Position numbers and translations under genes: made by a program. The notes under the pieces were generated by a model that made no database searches, was not told where the DNA came from, and was given only the letters and a program-made list of their open reading frames with translations. A DNA stretch of 20,929 nt, from the IMG/VR virus record IMGVR_UViG_3300030108_005658, positions 1 through 20,929 of that record, one strand, 5' to 3'. Below, one piece after another: positions 1-20,929 of this stretch. This stretch comes from a virus. How positions within the stretch are numbered: position 1 is the first letter of the stretch; the number at the start of each line of letters is the position of its first letter.

Positions 1-808
1 CATCTTTTGTTCTTATGAACATATCTGAAGATGTTCCATGTCCTTCAACACCAATAAGTTTTCTACCTGCTGGTGTATCCCACACAACCTCTCCTATATT
101 ATCTCCATATACTTCTTTTATCCAAGACGCTGTATTTACCGCAGCATTAACCCATTTTTCATTTAAGATTTTATCCTTATCTTTTGCTATTTTCATTAGC
201 TCTGATTTAATTTCATCAATGTCTCTATTTTTTAATAATTCTCTAAGCACATAATGAACAGCTGCTTCACCAGCTCTTGATTCTGCAGTTCCTGCACCAA
301 CTCCCTTTTCACCTTTCTTTTCTGCTTGAGCTTTAGCATCAGCCGTAGATAAATTCATTTGACTATCGGTGGTTTCGTGGTCTTCATTTCTTAAATCTTC
401 ATTAGAGGTTTTAGGTTTTGTTTCTTTTTTATCATCACCTTTTTTATCCATTGGATTTTTATCAACTTCCATACCAGGTGTGGTATCGGTTTCAGTTTCA
501 CCACCCTCTTGTTCATATTCTTTTGCAGCTTTTTCTTGGTCTACTTTTTCATGTGAACCATCTTCAATACCTTTTTCATAATTATCTTTGTTTTTATATT
601 GAACGATTCTTCCACTTTCTTTTGAACGAGAATAATATACTTGTTCTTCAAATAAATTTTGTATAAACTCAAAAATAAATCGATTTGGTAAATTCAATTC
701 TTCCATTGATTTTTTTAATTCAAATATGTGTAGTGGATTTTTAACGTTAGGCATTCCATCGTGTACACGATACGCCCATTCTGTAAGTATTTTATCTATT
801 AAATTCAT
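1..808 (-). CDS. Acidic protein of unknown function (3' end outside window)
   Basis: An open frame begins with ATG at 808-806, one base after the polymerase stop, and runs without a stop to the window edge, giving about 269 residues of an incomplete protein. The start has only a weak ribosome site (AGG about 7 nt upstream) and is probably translationally coupled. The first ~60 residues look globular (start MNLIDKILTEWAYRVHDGMP). Residues ~60-165 are a highly charged, Lys/Glu/Asp-rich, low-complexity linker. From ~170 a second folded part begins with a helix containing ESRAGEAAVHYVLREL, and the visible end contains HGTSSDMFIRTKD. A conserved helix Glu and a later Asp in a beta strand would fit a PD-(D/E)XK-like nuclease fold, but the decisive E-x-K part lies outside the window. 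It may equally be a virion structural protein. The function is unknown. Confidence 0.8.
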   Translation of the reverse strand, partial: MNLIDKILTEWAYRVHDGMPNVKNPLHIFELKKSMEELNLPNRFIFEFIQNLFEEQVYYSRSKESGRIVQYKNKDNYEKGIEDGSHEKVDQEKAAKEYEQEGGETETDTTPGMEVDKNPMDKKGDDKKETKPKTSNEDLRNEDHETTDSQMNLSTADAKAQAEKKGEKGVGAGTAESRAGEAAVHYVLRELLKNRDIDEIKSELMKIAKDKDKILNEKWVNAAVNTASWIKEVYGDNIGEVVWDTPAGRKLIGVEGHGTSSDMFIRTKD

Positions 809-809
809 G

Positions 810-2123
810 TTATAACCTATCGGTAATATTTTTCATATCACCATAATTTAATCCCATTTGAGATTTTGTGAAATGTTTTCCTTCTTCTAATATGTTTTTA
901 ATTTCTGTCAAAGTTTCTACTCCGTCTTGTTTAGAAAAATCAAAGAGGAAACTATCATATCCATATAAAACCAATTTAGTGTGTTTAGTTAATAAATAGT
1001 CTTGAATAGATAAAATCTTCTTAATATTTGATTCTGTCTCATATGCTTGTATCAAATAGTTAAAAACTTTATTTCTATTTAAGTCATCATAATTATCGTA
1101 TGTAAGTTTCCTTCTATAAATATCAGTATAAACACAATTATGTGTATTTATTTCATTCCATTTTGAATTAATATATTTATGAACTAAATCAAAAAATAGT
1201 ACTTTTTCTCTTGTTTCTTTATCAATTCCACCATACAATAATCTAAATGTTCTAGCCTTTGACTCTTGATATGAACAACCATAACGCTCTGCGAGGTGTT
1301 CGTGTACTGAATCACTACAAAACCTATAGTCAACCAAATCACCTATTAACCTCAAGTGATATGCATCAAAGTCAAATTCAACCAAATAATCATTTTCAGG
1401 TATAATAGATTTTCTCTTTTCTGGTGGTAGAGCTGCAAAGTTTACAGTTCCAAATGCATTTGATGGACGACCTGTGGTTGTGGTTAGATTGTAGTTGGAA
1501 TACAATTTACCATTCGATATATGTTTTTTGACTCTTAGGTCAAATATATCACACACGTCATTGGACACCTTTACACCATTTTTTTCTATATTGTAAAAAG
1601 CCTTTATCTTATCGAGTGCTCCACTATTTTCAAACCAACCCTCATCATCAATAAGTGGATTTAAATCTTTTTGTGCCCATTTCAATATCTTATCTGAAAC
1701 CTCATCACAATACTCTTTGTGTTTGCTTATTGGTATGATTTCGTTAAGTTTTTTTACATTGTAGTATTTATTACTCAGGAAATCTATTGCATTGTTTCTC
1801 ACTTCCAAGTCTAAAGGTTTTCCATGTAACCACCAATGTCCTATATTTACATCAAAAATACATCTATATTCAGGCAATATTGGTAATAGTTTTTTAGCAT
1901 CAGGTGTCATAACAATCTGTTTATCATCCATTAGAAATGAGTAATCAACCATATATTGATTGGAATCTGGATGTTTTTGAGGTAAGATATAACTCTTTGA
2001 TGAATCCCAATTATCCACATCGTTTCCATGAATTTCTCTAATATAAAGTAGCGACAACTTGTTATTCTTATGTAGTGGATGTAAGAATGGATCTGAATAT
2101 ATGGGTATAGCAATATAAATCAT
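810..2123 (-). CDS. Family A DNA polymerase domain, exonuclease-less
   Basis: The 437-aa product carries the ordered landmarks of a family A (Pol I-type) polymerase. A TTTTGRPS box lies at ~215-221 (compare TATGRLSS, with R219 matching E. coli R668). Motif A is DFDAYHLR at 251-258 (compare DYSQIELR), preceded downstream of TGR by NFAALP (compare NLQNIP). A helix with VHEHLAERYG leads to motif B, KARTFRLLYGG at 289-299 (compare KAINFGLIYG, retaining Lys, Phe, Tyr and Gly). Q359 matches Q849. Motif C is YDSFLFDF at 389-396 (compare HDELVFEV). Both catalytic Asp positions, D251 and D390, are kept. The Glu of motif A is His, and the HDE of motif C is YDS. The N-terminal ~200 residues show no recognisable 3'-5' exonuclease motifs. 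The start ATG at 2123 has only a weak ribosome site. T4 relatives replicate with a family B enzyme, so this would be an additional or specialised polymerase, oddly placed after the hub gene. Confidence 0.8.
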   Translation of the reverse strand: MIYIAIPIYSDPFLHPLHKNNKLSLLYIREIHGNDVDNWDSSKSYILPQKHPDSNQYMVDYSFLMDDKQIVMTPDAKKLLPILPEYRCIFDVNIGHWWLHGKPLDLEVRNNAIDFLSNKYYNVKKLNEIIPISKHKEYCDEVSDKILKWAQKDLNPLIDDEGWFENSGALDKIKAFYNIEKNGVKVSNDVCDIFDLRVKKHISNGKLYSNYNLTTTTGRPSNAFGTVNFAALPPEKRKSIIPENDYLVEFDFDAYHLRLIGDLVDYRFCSDSVHEHLAERYGCSYQESKARTFRLLYGGIDKETREKVLFFDLVHKYINSKWNEINTHNCVYTDIYRRKLTYDNYDDLNRNKVFNYLIQAYETESNIKKILSIQDYLLTKHTKLVLYGYDSFLFDFSKQDGVETLTEIKNILEEGKHFTKSQMGLNYGDMKNITDRL

Positions 2124-2129
2124 ACTACA

Positions 2130-2138
2130 ATATATAAA
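2130..2138 (-). promoter_or_regulatory. Degenerate copy of the intergenic AT element
   Basis: ATATATAAA on the plus strand matches the first nine bases of the 12-base element found exactly in five other gaps. It sits in the 40-nt gap between the hub and polymerase genes, about 10 nt upstream of the polymerase ATG. Its placement matches the other copies, but the match is short and AT-rich, so it could be chance. Confidence 0.25.
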
Positions 2139-2163
2139 CTTTTATGTTAAAAAACAAGCTTTT

Positions 2164-5100
2164 TTATGGCCACCACGAACCATTTTCATCAGGATTACTA
2201 TGTCCCTTGTTTCCCACACAACAACAATTTTGTTTATTTGGTCCAGTGTAATCTTGTCCGTCTTGAAGACCAAATCCATCGGCTTGACACCAATCTCTTG
2301 GATCAACATCTTGATGAGTATCAGTGTATAAATCAACAGCTGTTTTTCTTTCTTGAGTTCCATCATGACCAACGTAACCACCACATCTAAATTGACCTTC
2401 AAAGTCTCCTGTTTCACATTCAAATGTATAAAATTCAAAAGGAGCTCTAGGATTAGTAGGATATGGTAGATAGTTCCAATTCCTCAAATCACAAGGTTCA
2501 TTAGCATCTGGATCATACATTGGATCACCCTCTATCATACATCCCACTCTACGCATAGGTGGTGATTCTTCTTCATCCACTCCACCACCTGTGTCACCAC
2601 CTGTATCTCCACCTGTTCCATTATCTGTAGAGCCACCCTCATCTCCTGGTATAAAAGGTGTTGTTGGTTCAAACTGAATATAACTTCCTTCTGCACCACC
2701 TAAATATTTATCAAAAAAATTGTCTATGTTATCAATATAATAAGGGCAACTTTCATCACATTCAGATTCCTGTGAACTAGTATCATCAATACCTGGTATA
2801 TTGAACTCAGGAATAAGAAATTTTGCTGTTTTTCCTTTGCTTCCATCATACTCCCAACCTCCTATTGGATCTAATTGGTCAAACCCCAAAGATTCACCAA
2901 TAACGGAATTTCTAAATTTCTCTTTTACAGATTCTGCAAAAGTTCCACCAAGAAGTCCCACAGAATACTCAGATCTACCTGGTTGTCCTGGACCATTCCA
3001 TCCCCAACAACAAGGATCAGGATAATTAGCCACTCCACCAAGACCAGTGGCAAAACTAAAATTAGCATTCAAATACTGTTGCATCAATGAACCACCTGGT
3101 TGGTCACCACTATTAATGTCAAAATTTTGAAAATATATATTATGGTCAAATTTTGAAAGTTTTTGGTTCCAAGCTTGAGAACTTGAAAAGTTTGTATCTT
3201 GTTCATCATTTAATGGAACTAACATATAAAATGCATATGGAACTAATTCAGAGACATTATTGAACACTAACATATACAATTCATCAGATTTTATATTTAT
3301 TCCAGCTGGTAAAAGTCCTCCCACAACATCATATCCACTAAAAGCAAATTCTGTAATAGTTGGATAAATTAATTGTCCTATTGACGTAGGAACATCCCCC
3401 AAATTAGCGGCATAAATCCAACCCTCACCTGCTGCAATGTTAAGGGTTGGTCCATCAAGGTCATAATTACTCCAAAGAGGATCAACCACTGTTGGAGCAT
3501 CATATAAAAAATAATATTTATTTATACAATTTATATCAGATACCCAATCGGGTGCAAATATTCTATCCCAAAAATCATGACATCGTTCAACTTTTGTTCC
3601 CCCACTAGAGGCTATAAATGGTTCATTATTTTGTTCACTGAAACCTCGAACGTATGGGTAACCAATCAACATACTGTAATTAGTATTTAATGATCCGTAC
3701 AAATGATAAGCGGGAAAAGCTATTTTTACACTATCCTTTCCCTTATTGTATTCTTGTATTGCCACTTTGTTTCCTCTCACAAGAAAAGCTTCATCATTTA
3801 AAAAAGTAAAATTATGATTTTTCAAACTTACAGGTTTTTCTATCGTCACCAAATCCATTAATTTATCAACAGGCATCCCTACATATTGACCACCATCTAA
3901 AAAATTATCATCTCTATTGAAATCTAATTGAAAAACATCCTCCACCCATTCAGGCATTGCAACACCATATGTTAAATCACCTGGTTCAGCCTGTTCATAA
4001 TACAATTCATTTTCAAGATTGGTCATTTCATTAACTGTTTTTATATCAAACTCTTTAATTTCACTTTGGGAATCTATTTTATCCGTACTGGTTCCTACGA
4101 TAGATTTTAAAAACTCTGGAGATAAAACAACGTCTGAATAAGGTTTATATAATTCTTTAGATTTCAAACTATCTCTTCTTATTCTCATCACGGTTTCAAA
4201 CGTTGTGTACCACCCATCAGAGTTTATGTCTTGAGAGACTTTTACAACCTGAAAATAAACATTGTTTCTATAAAGTTCTGGTAAATAATTTACCTTAAAT
4301 AAATCTCCAGGTTGAATCGATGATATTCCGTATATGGTTAAACTAAGTGATATTGGGAGTGCAGTTGCACTCGTTTTTACCTCATCTCCCTCTACAAACT
4401 TACCAGTGAAAAAAGCTTGTTGAGCCAAAACTCTATGATATTCACTAATACTGTCTGCAGCATAAATGTTTAACATATTATAATATTCAGAAGTTTTTTT
4501 CTGTACATTTTCAGAGGAAATATCTTTACTCGATGGTTGAGTTGTTGATGATCCATCTCCCTCTTCTCCATCCTCATCAGGATTTGGGACAATGTTTTCA
4601 CCATCACTAAATGGTGACACAAATTCACTTAGGGTATGACCATCATAAGTGGTTGCAACAGTTCTTGACTTACCCATTAAATTTAAATCTTCAACTAATT
4701 TTCCATATCTTCCAAATAAATTTTTATTTTCAGGACCAGTTCTACCTCTTAATTTTTCCACATGAGAAAATATATCTAATTCATTCATGTAAGTGAAATA
4801 ATAATCTGTTATTTCACCGTCTGAATCATCTCCACCAAAACTTGACAATAAAGAGTGTGCAGCCATATATTTTTGAATATTTGTGCCATTTGGAAATACT
4901 TGATTTTTAGAACTTAAATTTTGAATCGCATACATGTTTCCAACATCACCTTCTGGTATACTTAAATTCACATCATAACTTTTAACTATTGAACTATTGG
5001 ACATCACATCAAATGTAAAAAGTTTATCATAAGCATTTTCATCATCTTTTTCTAAACTATCATAATTATAGTCACTCACTGATATGGAACTATCATTACC

Positions 5101-7035
5101 TGGACTTTGAGTTATTCTTAAATCAAATATATCTCCTGAATCCTCATTTATTTTTTCTAAAATTAATTCAATTGCCTCTCTAACAGATTCTGAATGATCA
5201 AAAGCTTTTTTAATAATATTAACATTAATGAATATTTCTCTTAATGGTATTCTTTTAGCAAATATATCAGTTTTAGTGTAATCTGATAAATCTCTCATCT
5301 TATCAAATTCTTGATACTTTGGTGGAGTTTTATTTAGTCTAAGATAACTCGCATAAGTATATCCCTCTTCATCAGCATCTCTTGGTAATTTTCCAACTCG
5401 AGCACTATAACTATCATGCCAATACTCTGGATATAAAAATACAGGAACGTCAGCATGAGGTCCATATTCCTGTCCATAGTTAATAATATCTTCTTGTCTC
5501 TTTCTAAATTGTTTAATCCAAGGCACAAATGAGTCTTGTGAATTCATAGATATTTCAAAATTTAAATGGTCGGATTTATTAATATCATCTACAGTTTCCC
5601 CAAAACCTAACTCTGAATTTATAACCTTATCTTCAAATAATCCAAATGAAATAAAATTTAAATCATCATATTTTTTATTCATGAAAATTCCATATGGGAC
5701 GGATAAATCATATGCGTTTTCAGGATTATCCTCATCATTTTCAGTCCTATTAACTCCAGGAGTTAAGTCGTCTTCAAGTCCAAATGATTTTCTGGCAAGA
5801 GCTCTAATGGTTTTTTGAAAATCCTCTATATTGTTTGTGCTTGAATTATAATCCGGTAATGAACCTGTAAGAATTCCTCTTTCTTGATTTGAACTTACTT
5901 GATATAATCCCTCAAATGTTATCAAATGGTCTAATATATAAGATACTTTTCGAGCAATATTTGTTTCTTCAGTGTTTTGATTTAATAAAGCTGTATTTCT
6001 TGAGGTAATTGTTAAACTACATTCAATACTACCATTCTCTTGTATTTTCGAATCATAAGATTGAACGATACCAACCAAAGTATCTACAAGTCCTTGTTGT
6101 GAACCTACCCATCCATTTTTATCAAATAATTTGTTTTGAATTCCACTTAAACCATTATACTCCTTACTCTCATCCAAAAAATTTCTAGGATCATATAATT
6201 CAATATTTTCATTACTCCATCCAAAATCAAGAAATATTTGAGCTCCTGGTTTTAAAAAAAATTTATTATATATTTTATCAAAATCATAAAAATTATGAAC
6301 TGTAAAATTTATTGTGGTTTTTCTTATTTCTCCTATCGCACCTTGAGTTTCAGAAGACACTGAGGTAATTCCAGCTCCTGGTTTTAAAAATTCATTGTTT
6401 TGACCTATATAACCATGTGTGGGGTGAAAATAAGGAGCATTATGTTCTTCTGGAAATAAAACCTCATATGAATCAGAGGGAGTTGAATATCTTTCTTGAT
6501 TAGGATACAAGGTTCCAACGTCATGTGAATTAACTTGATATACTTTTGTTTCAAATGGCCTATCTGGAACTTGTGGATCTAATTCATCAGATATGTAATG
6601 TTGTTGTCTTTGAACATCCCAATCTATGGGGGTATTAGGAAAATCCGTTTGTAATTTTTTCTTTTGATCCTGTATAGCTTTATTTCTATCTGTGATAGTT
6701 CTTGAATCTTCAGGTCCAAATCCCTCAGCACGTGGAAAGTATATTTTCTTTTCAACTTTTTTAATTAAATTAACAGCTGTCCACATTCTGGTAAATGGAG
6801 ACCTCGAACCTAATTCATATGAACCATCAAATTGATTATCCAAAAGTTCACCATAAGTGTAGAAACCTTGATTTGATTCACCACCTCCTGTGACTCTACT
6901 ATCTTTATAACTTGAGTCCTTTATTTCTTCATTTGGAGATTTTAAAGTAGATGAGGCTCTTTGTCTAGCTTCTAATATTTTTTTAACTCTAATGGGGATG
7001 TCAGAACCTAAAACTCTTTTGTTTATTGTTGGCAT
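2164..7035 (-). CDS. Baseplate hub (gp27-like) with long Cys-rich C-terminal extension
   Basis: This 1623-aa protein is the largest in the window. The first ~960 residues look like a tail hub. An early segment has GAIGEIRKTTINFTVHNF and PGAQIFLDFGW, and the segment near residue 893 (LSLTIYGISSIQPGDLFKV, then YFQVVKVSQ and W-T-T-FET) is the signature ending of gp27/gpD-type hub domains. That fold forms the trimeric platform joining tube and spike. Residues ~960-1465 are of unknown fold. A Gly/Asp/Thr linker (GGDTGGDTGGG) at ~1480 separates a terminal domain with eight Cys, including a CCC triplet near the end. T4 gp27 is about 390 aa, so this protein is about four times longer, and no separate gp5-like spike is seen nearby. 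ATG lies 1 nt after the LysM gene stop, with AAGG upstream. The hub call is firm; the role of the C-terminus is inferred only to be spike- or host-facing. Confidence 0.75.
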   Translation of the reverse strand: MPTINKRVLGSDIPIRVKKILEARQRASSTLKSPNEEIKDSSYKDSRVTGGGESNQGFYTYGELLDNQFDGSYELGSRSPFTRMWTAVNLIKKVEKKIYFPRAEGFGPEDSRTITDRNKAIQDQKKKLQTDFPNTPIDWDVQRQQHYISDELDPQVPDRPFETKVYQVNSHDVGTLYPNQERYSTPSDSYEVLFPEEHNAPYFHPTHGYIGQNNEFLKPGAGITSVSSETQGAIGEIRKTTINFTVHNFYDFDKIYNKFFLKPGAQIFLDFGWSNENIELYDPRNFLDESKEYNGLSGIQNKLFDKNGWVGSQQGLVDTLVGIVQSYDSKIQENGSIECSLTITSRNTALLNQNTEETNIARKVSYILDHLITFEGLYQVSSNQERGILTGSLPDYNSSTNNIEDFQKTIRALARKSFGLEDDLTPGVNRTENDEDNPENAYDLSVPYGIFMNKKYDDLNFISFGLFEDKVINSELGFGETVDDINKSDHLNFEISMNSQDSFVPWIKQFRKRQEDIINYGQEYGPHADVPVFLYPEYWHDSYSARVGKLPRDADEEGYTYASYLRLNKTPPKYQEFDKMRDLSDYTKTDIFAKRIPLREIFINVNIIKKAFDHSESVREAIELILEKINEDSGDIFDLRITQSPGNDSSISVSDYNYDSLEKDDENAYDKLFTFDVMSNSSIVKSYDVNLSIPEGDVGNMYAIQNLSSKNQVFPNGTNIQKYMAAHSLLSSFGGDDSDGEITDYYFTYMNELDIFSHVEKLRGRTGPENKNLFGRYGKLVEDLNLMGKSRTVATTYDGHTLSEFVSPFSDGENIVPNPDEDGEEGDGSSTTQPSSKDISSENVQKKTSEYYNMLNIYAADSISEYHRVLAQQAFFTGKFVEGDEVKTSATALPISLSLTIYGISSIQPGDLFKVNYLPELYRNNVYFQVVKVSQDINSDGWYTTFETVMRIRRDSLKSKELYKPYSDVVLSPEFLKSIVGTSTDKIDSQSEIKEFDIKTVNEMTNLENELYYEQAEPGDLTYGVAMPEWVEDVFQLDFNRDDNFLDGGQYVGMPVDKLMDLVTIEKPVSLKNHNFTFLNDEAFLVRGNKVAIQEYNKGKDSVKIAFPAYHLYGSLNTNYSMLIGYPYVRGFSEQNNEPFIASSGGTKVERCHDFWDRIFAPDWVSDINCINKYYFLYDAPTVVDPLWSNYDLDGPTLNIAAGEGWIYAANLGDVPTSIGQLIYPTITEFAFSGYDVVGGLLPAGINIKSDELYMLVFNNVSELVPYAFYMLVPLNDEQDTNFSSSQAWNQKLSKFDHNIYFQNFDINSGDQPGGSLMQQYLNANFSFATGLGGVANYPDPCCWGWNGPGQPGRSEYSVGLLGGTFAESVKEKFRNSVIGESLGFDQLDPIGGWEYDGSKGKTAKFLIPEFNIPGIDDTSSQESECDESCPYYIDNIDNFFDKYLGGAEGSYIQFEPTTPFIPGDEGGSTDNGTGGDTGGDTGGGVDEEESPPMRRVGCMIEGDPMYDPDANEPCDLRNWNYLPYPTNPRAPFEFYTFECETGDFEGQFRCGGYVGHDGTQERKTAVDLYTDTHQDVDPRDWCQADGFGLQDGQDYTGPNKQNCCCVGNKGHSNPDENGSWWP

Positions 7036-16253: not shown

Positions 16254-18065
16254 TTATTCAGGAAACGATGCACCTGTTGGTTGTATTGTGAAATCTAGTA
16301 CTATAAATTCAGCAGTTCTTGTTGGTTGTAAGAATAATTGACCAACCATTTGATTCCTATCTATGGTATCAGGTGTGTTATTCGTTTCATCCATCACCAC
16401 TCTAAATGCACTCAATCCACTTTGTGATTGAACTTGTTCCAAAAATGGATTAACAATTGCCAAAAATCTTCTTCGTGTTGCCGCTGTGTTCTGTTCAAAA
16501 ACAAGAAATCTAGATGATGAAGCTATAAATTTCTTGACTCTAATTAATAATCGTCTAACATTAATTCTATCCAATGCTGATGATTTTTTCTGTAATGTTT
16601 TTTGTCCAAATACCGTTACACCTTGACCAGGAAATGTTGCGATTGGATTGACGTTTGAATCATATAATGTATCCCTATCAGCCTGAGTTAGTTTTCTTTC
16701 AGCCTGAATTGCAACATCAATACCACCACGATTTAAACCTGCTGGAGCGAACCAAGGATGAGCAACTCTATCATTGAATGCATATATTCCACCTAATACT
16801 ACTGATGGTGGCACCCATCTTTGAGTTCCACTAACTAAGGTATCAGGTACTTTAATCCAAGGCCAGTAAACAGCTGCAAAGTTTGAATCTCTAGTCTCAG
16901 CCTCTGCCGTAACCTCAGTTACATTACTACTATATGGAACAGGATCAAGTATTGCAAAACAGTCTGCTCTTTCTTCACATACATCGATAATTTTTGAAGC
17001 CACGGTGGTATGTAATTTCGATACAATACCTGGAGTTAATATTAAATTAATATCATATTCATCTTGATTTGATAATAAATCTAGTGCCTCTTGATAAGAG
17101 GAAAGTCCTTCAGTAGCTGCTGTTGGATCAAATCCTTGTGTATTATTTTCAGTTATATTTTCATAGAAATTAGCTGGTTTAACTCCTGTTCTAGTTCCAT
17201 TATGATTACCCAATGCATCAAATCCACTAAATCCATCTGCACCTCCCGCAAATCCACCATTAAATGAACCACTACCACTATGAGGTAGAGAAGATGATGC
17301 TGCATTTACTCTAATAGTTCCATTTTCATCTAAATAATCAACTGTCTCACTGACTGAATCAACTCTTACGTACTTTGACTTATTTGGATAAGAACCACTT
17401 AATTGTAAAAATGGTTTACCGGAATCAAATCTTAAAGTTTGAACTTGGTCACCAACCATTTTTGATATAAAATTTGTAGAATTAGGATCTAATGTAACAT
17501 TATTGTATGTTTCTAATATTTGTTTTCTTTTATGTGTATCATCACCTCTTCTGATTAAAAGAGTAAATGTTCCTCTTTTTTTGTTTATATTGGATACCTC
17601 ATATCTAATATTATGTTTAGAACCACTGATAAGAATGTTATTCGTTCTAGCAGTGGTGTCAGAATTATTCATTATTGTCCCATCAGCTAAGGTTGTAAGT
17701 TGAAATGAAACTCCACTTCTACCATCCTCTGTTATATCACCAGCTGCACTACTTGTCATAACAGAAGCGGTAGCTGGTGCAAATGCACCATCCATAATCC
17801 TTACGACCGTTAAAGTGTCTGAATTTCTTAAATATTGTTCTGCAGTGTGTGATGTTAAAAATTGAACTTGAGTTGAACCACTTTTAAATGCATCTCCAAA
17901 TTTTTGTTGATATTCTGCAAATGATGTTACCACAGTTGGAACTAGAGCAGGTCCTTTGACCGTTGGTCCTATTAGTGCCGCTCCTATGTTAGCTACTGCT
18001 GATGGTAAAAATGTTTGATCTATTTCGTTTGTAAATACTCCGGGGGAAATTACTTTTTCGGCCAT
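16254..18065 (-). CDS. 18: Tail sheath protein, short paralogue (603 aa)
   Basis: This is the second gp18-family protein, first in transcription order. It has the same conserved frame as its 760-aa neighbour: VISPGVFTNEIDQTFLP at the N-terminus, SHTAEQYLRNSDTLTVVRIM at ~72-91, a central INLILTPGIVSKLH segment, a NPIATFPGQGVTVFGQKTLQ stretch and a C-terminal VVMDETNNTPDTIDRNQMVG. It lacks the ~160-residue insertion after VVRI. The two genes differ at many third codon positions, so the duplication is old, but an exact match of about 28 bases near their 5' ends may reflect gene conversion or strong constraint. AGGAG lies 9 nt before the ATG. A leader of about 60 nt separates it from an AT element. 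Confidence 0.93.
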   Translation of the reverse strand: MAEKVISPGVFTNEIDQTFLPSAVANIGAALIGPTVKGPALVPTVVTSFAEYQQKFGDAFKSGSTQVQFLTSHTAEQYLRNSDTLTVVRIMDGAFAPATASVMTSSAAGDITEDGRSGVSFQLTTLADGTIMNNSDTTARTNNILISGSKHNIRYEVSNINKKRGTFTLLIRRGDDTHKRKQILETYNNVTLDPNSTNFISKMVGDQVQTLRFDSGKPFLQLSGSYPNKSKYVRVDSVSETVDYLDENGTIRVNAASSSLPHSGSGSFNGGFAGGADGFSGFDALGNHNGTRTGVKPANFYENITENNTQGFDPTAATEGLSSYQEALDLLSNQDEYDINLILTPGIVSKLHTTVASKIIDVCEERADCFAILDPVPYSSNVTEVTAEAETRDSNFAAVYWPWIKVPDTLVSGTQRWVPPSVVLGGIYAFNDRVAHPWFAPAGLNRGGIDVAIQAERKLTQADRDTLYDSNVNPIATFPGQGVTVFGQKTLQKKSSALDRINVRRLLIRVKKFIASSSRFLVFEQNTAATRRRFLAIVNPFLEQVQSQSGLSAFRVVMDETNNTPDTIDRNQMVGQLFLQPTRTAEFIVLDFTIQPTGASFPE

Positions 18066-19764: not shown

Positions 19765-20929
19765 TTAATATCCTTTAATTGCTTCCCAAGTTGGAAGTCC
19801 TGTACCATCGGTTTCAAGTGTTCCATTATTACTATTACCTGAATGGTCAATAATAGTATTTCCACTACCTTCATTCATTTTCCAATATCCTACAAGATTA
19901 CTAGCACCTGTATGGTCATAATTAATACCACCATTATACACTTCTTGTGCAAAACTTGTACCTTTGTCTGTATCATAAATAGCTACTTCATCAAGACCAC
20001 AATCCCATCCTCTGTTAAAATCTCCACTTAAATTACGAGCTCCTAACATTAAACCAGTTGTTCCACCACCTCCTTGACTCCAGTCTAAATTATTTGTTTT
20101 AATGAGTTCACCATTCATATATATATTAAGTTCTGCATTATCACCTGTATCTGTACGGTTAGCATATGTTATTACAAAATTAATCCAATTACCTGTTTTT
20201 AATGAATTATCATCATTAAGTAAGTGAGAAAGGTTTGAATTAGTATTAACTCCCATTGATGCATAGGTGGTTCTTATCCTTTCACCACCAACACCAACAA
20301 ATATTGCTTTACTTGTGTTAATACCAAATGAAAATCGTTGGTTATTATTATGTTTTCTACCGAGTGCAAACATAGGTACGGTATCACTTTCTGAAGTAGA
20401 TACTGCATCTGGTCTAACCCAATAAGAAACCGTAAACCCTAATCTAAGGTTAACACCATTGTCATCTGGTTTAAAACCAGTTTGTACATAAGCTCTATTT
20501 CCTTCTTGACCACCGAATTTTATGTTGTAATTTTCAACAACAGGTGCAACTCCACCTCTTCCTTTTTTATATCTAAGTCTATCTATTAAAAGATTATTTT
20601 CTTGAAATACTTTTTTAGCTAAACTTTCATTTATTTGAAATAAGTAATTACTCTCTGGTATTTCTAACCAACTCATCCAATCTAATTTTACATTACCTTG
20701 TTTTTGTTTTGATACTTCTACTAATGTAGGAATTAAATTTGTACTATCCACAATGTCCATTTTTTTAATTTTATCTTCATATAATTTTTTTGTATTAAAA
20801 GCAGTTTTATTTGTTAACCATTGTGATTCTAATTCTTGTTTTAAATTTTCAATAATTCTATCTTTTTCTGCCAACTCATCTTGATATTGAGCTTTAAAAG
20901 ATTTTATATCTCCCACAGGTTTAGAAATA
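19765..20929 (-). CDS. LamG-domain virion protein (5' end outside window)
   Basis: The frame is open to the window edge. A GTG at 20916 is available but has no ribosome site, and codons upstream of it (ISKP) remain open, so the true start is probably outside. In the visible ~387 residues, an N-terminal coiled coil (~10-60, with EKDRIIENLKQELESQWL) precedes a concanavalin A/laminin G-type lectin domain from ~130 to the end. The landmarks are FTVSYWVRP, NWINFVITYANR, ELNIYMNGELIKT, GLMLGARN, GLDEVAIYD and the closing LVGYWKMNEGSGNTIIDHSG. Such domains bind carbohydrate or decorate surfaces. Next to the neck genes, it could be a neck fibre, head decoration or adhesin. The domain call is firm; the role is inferred. 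Confidence 0.85.
   Translation of the reverse strand, partial: ISKPVGDIKSFKAQYQDELAEKDRIIENLKQELESQWLTNKTAFNTKKLYEDKIKKMDIVDSTNLIPTLVEVSKQKQGNVKLDWMSWLEIPESNYLFQINESLAKKVFQENNLLIDRLRYKKGRGGVAPVVENYNIKFGGQEGNRAYVQTGFKPDDNGVNLRLGFTVSYWVRPDAVSTSESDTVPMFALGRKHNNNQRFSFGINTSKAIFVGVGGERIRTTYASMGVNTNSNLSHLLNDDNSLKTGNWINFVITYANRTDTGDNAELNIYMNGELIKTNNLDWSQGGGGTTGLMLGARNLSGDFNRGWDCGLDEVAIYDTDKGTSFAQEVYNGGINYDHTGASNLVGYWKMNEGSGNTIIDHSGNSNNGTLETDGTGLPTWEAIKGY

Follow-up and report, generated by a model that had tools for sequence, protein, structure and literature searches.

A divPolA1-type family A DNA polymerase with a family-wide histidine at the steric-gate position, encoded between baseplate and replication genes of phages

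The closest described system is divPolA1, the second polymerase of immuto-like phages, reported from 14 genomes, three of which are GOV records (Yutin et al., 2024, Virol J 21:200, PMC11348598). In the passages of that paper that deal with it, divPolA1 keeps a conserved palm, but its thumb is truncated and its exonuclease inactivated; it is accompanied by a regular PolA, PolB or PolC, and has replication genes downstream. A second enzyme treated there, divPolA2, is likewise a divergent, exonuclease-free additional PolA found beside PolB, but is set apart by its description, in which the gene context varies and the N-terminal domain is unrelated (PMC11348598). Our literature searches found no paper naming divPolA1 besides Yutin et al. 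(2024), in its published and preprint forms.

Here we describe a member of this family in the window, the whole 20,929-nucleotide stretch of viral DNA that was analysed (IMG/VR record IMGVR_UViG_3300030108_005658). A preliminary description, made from the sequence alone, had proposed a divergent family A polymerase of 437 amino acids at 810–2123. The gene is real and lies on the minus strand (Table 1); the plus-strand reading of the same interval contains many stops. A tblastn search with the window protein matches gp001 of Flavobacterium phage immuto, annotated as “DNA polymerase family A” (33.8% identity, 86% of the query, E=1e-49), and also Microcystis phage Mel-JY01 and a 484-kb uncultured phage record (LR756508). 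Single-sequence searches of Pfam, PHROGs, NCBIfam and PDB with the window protein gave no match. With a profile of 30 sequences, Klenow was matched at E=5e-4, and a profile of 61 sequences performed more weakly (best E=0.012, to Taq). The Pfam DNA_pol_A model does not match the window protein but does match 10 of 30 family members (best 4.6e-11), and the immuto member scores 43.9 bits against a cut-off of 34.3.

The window protein is a member of divPolA1, the family already published by Yutin et al. (2024). It shares with the published enzymes homology to immuto, a degenerate exonuclease, a conserved palm, a regular PolA or PolB alongside and replication genes behind. Marine members are not new to that study, since its 14 genomes include the GOV records. 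Against those 14 genomes we place hundreds of loci in three groups, and both the Mel-JY01 group and the promoter and terminator elements described below fall outside the passages of PMC11348598 on divPolA1.

The IMG/VR scans yielded overlapping sets of stretches: 395 confirmed with the window protein, at least 515 with the family profile, 312 with the immuto member and 109 with the Mel-JY01 member; the scan with the LR756508 member found none. Dropping partial and duplicate genes from 315 family hits left 198 distinct full-length sequences, which together with the window and the named members make up the 200 rows used for all conservation counts. Sixty-two representatives were selected, and the alignment derived from them (A2) has 61 rows, L241 being left out; the catalytic residues are invariant also in 61 representatives under 83% identity. 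The three groups (marine, to which the window belongs, immuto and Mel-JY01) are labelled by the query that fetched each locus. In the tree, the immuto and Mel-JY01 groups each form a single branch and the marine set needs two changes. One scan of genome contigs with the family alignment returned no cellular relatives, which says little, because it relied on short peptide patterns and a control scan for regular PolA was also empty.

Table 1. Position of the polymerase gene, its motifs and its immediate neighbours in the window
Feature	Position	Strand	Basis
Next gene, running off the window; constant N-terminal part of ~55 aa and variable C-terminal part	1..808	(-)	ORF, family clusters
divPolA1-type family A DNA polymerase gene, 437 aa, ATG start	810..2123	(-)	ORF list, immuto gp001 homology, AF2 model, PDB matches
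Motif C, Y389-D390-S391 (Y389 at H881 position)	951..959	(-)	200-row conservation
Motif B, Y285...K289...F293...Y297-G298 (Y285 at R754 position)	1230..1271	(-)	200-row conservation
Motif A, D251-F-D253-A-Y-H256-L	1353..1373	(-)	D251, D253, H256 200/200; ungapped alignment to Klenow
TGR box region, T217-G218-R219-P220 (R219 = Pol I R668 in alignment)	1464..1475	(-)	200-row conservation
Promoter-like element GCTTGTTTTTT...TTATATATTG in the spacer from the hub stop to the divPolA1 start; a Shine-Dalgarno sequence is absent	2124..2163	(-)	Conserved pattern; putative function
Preceding gene, 1623-aa baseplate hub-like protein, no Pfam match	2164..7035	(-)	ORF and Pfam search

Structure prediction, the check that the preliminary description had proposed, returned a Klenow-like polymerase. 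The AlphaFold2 model, built from 61 aligned rows, has a mean pLDDT of 92.7 and a pTM of 0.91. Its best Foldseek match in the PDB is the Klenow-type polymerase 1kfd (E=6.8e-16), and VIA-align superposes it on KlenTaq (4n56) with a Z score of 27.3 and an rmsd of 3.2 over 354 aligned residues. The match runs the whole length of the fold, from model residue 1 to 432, and only DNA polymerases are found among the best 50 Foldseek matches and the VIA-align matches. In the predicted model, a degenerate exonuclease domain (residues 1 to ~125) is followed by the thumb, palm and fingers, and this N-terminal part aligns in VIA-align with the exonuclease region of Klenow-type enzymes. The columns of exonuclease motifs I and II (7–9 and 79), mapped by eye with motif III outside the mapping, contain no Asp or Glu in the 200 rows. 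An earlier reading of this protein as having no recognisable exonuclease therefore holds for the activity, whose acidic residues are absent, but not for the domain, which is present in degenerate form. A loss of proofreading in divPolA1 is supported by these sequences. Unlike Pol I, the window protein has only 437 residues, has lost the exonuclease acids and has no 5′ nuclease domain, a FEN-like gene being encoded nearby.

The TGR box and motifs A, B and C, as read previously, occur in order and with the residues where they had been placed, and both catalytic aspartates are kept throughout the family. D390, like the three motif A residues counted in Table 1, is invariant in all 200 distinct full-length relatives. 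The same is true of R219 and P220 in the TGR box, where T217 is present in 198 rows and G218 in 104 (Ser in 94), and of K289, F293, Y297 and G298 in motif B, where Y285 is found in 198 of 200. In motif C, Y389 is also invariant, and position 391 is Ala in 117 rows and Ser in 83. Further invariant residues are Q359, E362, T363, N366 and Y387, with N355 conserved in 199 rows. The open reading frame is not a chance one, given the invariance of D251, K289, Y297 and D390, the confidence of the model and the Klenow-type best matches in the PDB.

Alignment to Klenow, ungapped within each motif, shows that R668, D705, K758, F762, Y766, N845, Q849 and D882 are kept, and that His stands in place of E710, Tyr in place of R754 and H881, and Ala or Ser in place of E883. 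R754 and H881 contact the triphosphate in Pol I. The His at the E710 position, the steric gate, is His256, so the previously noted exchange of the motif A Glu for His extends to every one of the 200 members. All 65 distinct regular PolAs of immuto-like phages retain Glu, Arg and His at the E710, R754 and H881 positions, and divPolA1 is set apart from them by the replacements. E710 and F762 are reported to be highly conserved among PolA enzymes, and E710 to bar ribonucleotides in Pol I, in the passages of PMC9324360 that concern these residues. The absence of a steric-gate Glu thus distinguishes divPolA1 from the canonical Pol I type, although that Glu is typical of family A and does not define it. 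The reading of the usual HDE of motif C as YDS in the window protein is confirmed, but its Ser is not odd: Tt72 pol, an active phage enzyme, also has D-S there, with Ser at the E883 position (PMC9324360).

The replaced residues His256, Tyr285 and Tyr389 would surround the incoming nucleotide. Two of them being invariant and Tyr285 nearly so, they predict an altered handling of its sugar and triphosphate, and might mean a substrate other than dNTPs. Relative to the published description of divPolA1, the family-wide exchange of His for Glu and the Tyr residues at the H881 and R754 positions are new here; the words “steric” and “histidine” are absent from the main text of Yutin et al. (PMC11348598) and of its preprint, a statement that covers the text and not the figure alignments.

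The window contains one continuous run of minus-strand tail genes, with the divPolA1 gene behind them. The run encodes a tail tube protein (PHROG tail tube, E=2.7e-28), a GH108 lysozyme, a T4 baseplate protein, a gp53/LysM-like wedge protein, sheath-like proteins (identified by eye) and the hub-like protein. Two adjacent sheath-like genes (13952–16234 and 16254–18065; 760 and 603 aa) have, by eye, very similar N- and C-terminal parts and different middles, and the start of the run (19765–20916) encodes a protein with a Laminin_G_3/ConA-like lectin domain (E=6e-14). Among loci with enough flank, a member of the hub family lies upstream of divPolA1 in 74 of 75 marine, 39 of 39 immuto and 34 of 34 Mel-JY01 cases; the immuto gene in this place is annotated as a carboxypeptidase. 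In the Mel-JY01 group, divPolA1 starts 3–15 nt (quartiles) behind the preceding gene, and the corresponding distance in the marine group is 42–49 nt (quartiles).

Downstream, replication genes follow in all three groups. Where 7 kb of flanking sequence is available, gp32, UvsX and FEN lie within 9 kb in 24/25 loci of the marine group, 17/17 of the immuto group and at least 21/22 of the Mel-JY01 group, and DnaB in 20/25, 17/17 and 21/22, respectively. A stretch 98.3% identical to the window over 11 kb (L005) extends beyond the edge of the window and there encodes gp32 and UvsX. The gene directly after divPolA1 in the marine group starts 0–1 nt behind it (for example L069:877-2187 and L043:11249-13276) and joins a constant N-terminal part, EWAYRVHDGMPNPKNPLH..., to a variable C-terminal part, for which 100 examined genes gave 16 clusters; the examples searched had no Pfam, PHROG or NCBIfam match. 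A protein of 130–150 aa with the core HRKK.SNTLYTIN.LN (for example L036:12767-13162, L001:1346-1801 and relatives) is also encoded downstream in 25/25 marine, 17/17 immuto and 13/22 Mel-JY01 loci. The model of a 132-aa representative (cl2) has a pLDDT of 94.3 and matches nothing in the PDB at E<=0.001. In one contig, a Mom-family protein is encoded a short way behind the DnaB helicase gene (L036:20013-20672; Pfam PF25680, E=1.1e-39).

The spacer in front of divPolA1 carries different signals in the three groups. The pattern TTG[TC]TT-N14-19-TRTATT, which was written after seeing the sequences, occurs upstream of divPolA1 in 57 of 76 distinct marine regions; upstream regions of other gene families have none, except immuto gp32 (3/43), and shuffles give a mean of ~0.05. 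Shine-Dalgarno sequences precede none of the 76 marine divPolA1 genes, versus 65 of 65 for gp32. These patterns suggest that marine divPolA1 has its own promoter, perhaps with a leaderless start. In the immuto group, 40 of 52 regions have, ahead of the gene, a stable hairpin followed by a T-run (−14.9 to −15.3 kcal/mol in three single examples), and matches of the promoter-like pattern overlap this terminator hairpin. The marine regions lack such a stable hairpin (window z +1.3; 1/75 passes). None of the 48 Mel-JY01 upstream regions has the promoter-like element, and this group shows no terminator either.

These signals bear on the earlier view of the gene as late-expressed and closing a tail operon. 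For the window’s group a late tail gene is unlikely, given the marine promoter-like element, the terminator in immuto and the replication genes, gp32 and UvsX among them, that follow; in the Mel-JY01 group, where the gene sits so close behind its neighbour, a link to the tail operon is possible. The T4 late promoter TATAAATA has 8 matches in the window against 3.6 expected, and 3 of 100 shuffles have as many. The coding-strand sequence ahead of structural genes is TATTTATA, a candidate late promoter that precedes five genes of the tail run (window ~11828, 13303, 13902, 18128 and 18481). None of the 76 upstream regions of marine divPolA1 contains the motif (TATAAATA/TATTTATA), and in the immuto group it precedes the gene that follows divPolA1 in 44 of 48 regions; as TATTTATA it lies upstream of the cl17 family in 31 of 31 marine regions. 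As it also stands in front of other genes, we do not call it a proven late promoter.

The suggestion that this is a second polymerase is borne out: divPolA1 accompanies the main DNA polymerase of the phage and does not replace it. A separate main polymerase is carried by all three named records and by 17 of the 20 longest related contigs, a set comprising all fetched contigs of at least 84 kb minus the immuto record’s own copy (L164). It is PolB in nine contigs and a full-size PolA, in frames of 778–796 aa, in eight. Immuto has a 777-aa PolA with an exonuclease domain (DNA_pol_A_exo1, E=1e-10). In the other two named records the enzyme is PolB: in Mel-JY01 it occupies an 855-aa frame, and in LR756508 it comes in several pieces, which extend over two long frames (LR756508.1 259363-267278) with the matching pieces far apart, as if interrupted by inserts. 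With a PolB protein as query, 7 of 24 records were matched, G010 among them. The three remaining contigs (G001, G003 and G035) have neither another polymerase nor UvsX, and divPolA1 lies within 4 kb of the contig end; with UvsX missing and the contig stopping so soon after the gene, truncation at this point is probable, and we reject them as cases of divPolA1 as sole replicase. The window, a fragment, yielded no PolB, and in the contig (G010) that holds a 90%-identical relative (L011) PolB lies ~13 kb downstream. The small polymerase therefore stays while the main one differs between relatives. A profile–profile comparison of divPolA1 with the regular PolA of the same phages was not significant (probability 0.3%, E=0.2, 65 columns). 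The phages with divPolA1 are T4-like in their tail genes (gp19-, gp53- and baseplate-type matches), and many have PolB. T4 gp43 is a replicase with proofreading and belongs to family B, a different polymerase family from divPolA1.

We favor a model, at a probability of about 0.5, in which divPolA1 is an accessory, exonuclease-free polymerase and acts beside FEN, SSB and a recombinase to fill gaps or to extend recombination intermediates. Its gene would open a replication-recombination block encoding the gp32 SSB, the UvsX recombinase, a FEN-like 5′-3′ exonuclease and a DnaB-type helicase. Pol I would in effect be split over two genes, with the FEN-like neighbor clearing RNA primers or flaps and divPolA1 filling gaps or extending 3′ ends in intermediates made by UvsX, and bulk copying would be left to PolB or the full-size PolA. 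Polymerase activity is predicted from the conserved catalytic residues, the gap-filling role is proposed from gene order alone, and the putative promoter would allow early expression. Yutin et al. read the same gene order as pointing to a replication role and find it less obvious what the “regular” polymerases do, in their passages on divPolA1 (PMC11348598). Their argument, together with the constant replication-gene context of all three groups, speaks for a reversal of roles, with divPolA1 as main replicase and an accessory part for the regular PolA or PolB. We consider this improbable: divPolA1 has no proofreading acids, whereas the regular enzymes are full-size with an exonuclease, as in immuto, and the PolB of one contig (G002) has canonical motifs, as read by eye. 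That divPolA1 is catalytically dead and serves as a replisome scaffold would fit the replaced nucleotide-contacting residues and the retention of a degenerate exonuclease domain, but a dead enzyme would have no need of two metal-binding Asp and a motif B Lys that are invariant in 200 of 200 members, and we give this very little weight. No more credible is an enzyme packaged in the virion or associated with the tail and delivered with the DNA. The position directly behind the baseplate hub gene in the window and the short gap in the Mel-JY01 group invite this idea, but the marine promoter-like element, the terminator that intervenes in immuto and the replication genes that come next all weigh against it.

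A ribonucleotide-tolerant or RNA-synthesising polymerase, taking NTPs and making RNA or mixed products that would serve in priming, in short RNA patches or in transcription, is a less remote alternative, though still an unlikely one. It draws on the replacement of residues that the regular PolAs of immuto-like phages retain and on the role of E710 in barring ribonucleotides (PMC9324360); Yutin et al., in the passages on these enzymes, raise an RNA polymerase reading for divPolA2 and not for divPolA1 (PMC11348598). It is doubtful, too, that the invariant His in place of the Glu gate and the two Tyr make divPolA1 accept NTPs or another non-standard nucleotide; if they do, the enzyme would lay RNA-containing patches or extend primers beside the main replicase. 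Against NTP use, the TGR box and the equivalents of Pol I F762 and Y766 are retained, the His could still exclude a 2′-OH, and no single-subunit RNA polymerase appears among the best 50 Foldseek matches or the VIA-align matches. A primase is also not missing: a separate TOPRIM primase homologous to immuto gp091 is encoded in 11 of 23 records (three named phage records and eight contigs), the other 12 being contigs classed as linear and often fragments, which weakens divPolA1 as a plain primase. The DNAG_N model was a poor probe here, with matches in 3 of 23 records, two of them over the cut-off.

An accessory polymerase working beside the main replicase remains the reading that we prefer. Hundreds of phage contigs retain an exonuclease-free second polymerase, be their main replicase PolA or PolB, and, being retained beside either, divPolA1 probably has a task that the main replicase leaves undone. 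Two points keep their interest: the division of labor between the two polymerases and the family-wide exchange of His for Glu. The substrate of divPolA1 is worth testing, because every member has His where others have the rNTP-excluding Glu. If the exchange alters sugar selection, nature would have run an experiment on the steric gate against ribonucleotides, and the enzyme might serve as a tool; if it leaves sugar selection unaltered, divPolA1 would have another way to exclude rNTPs.
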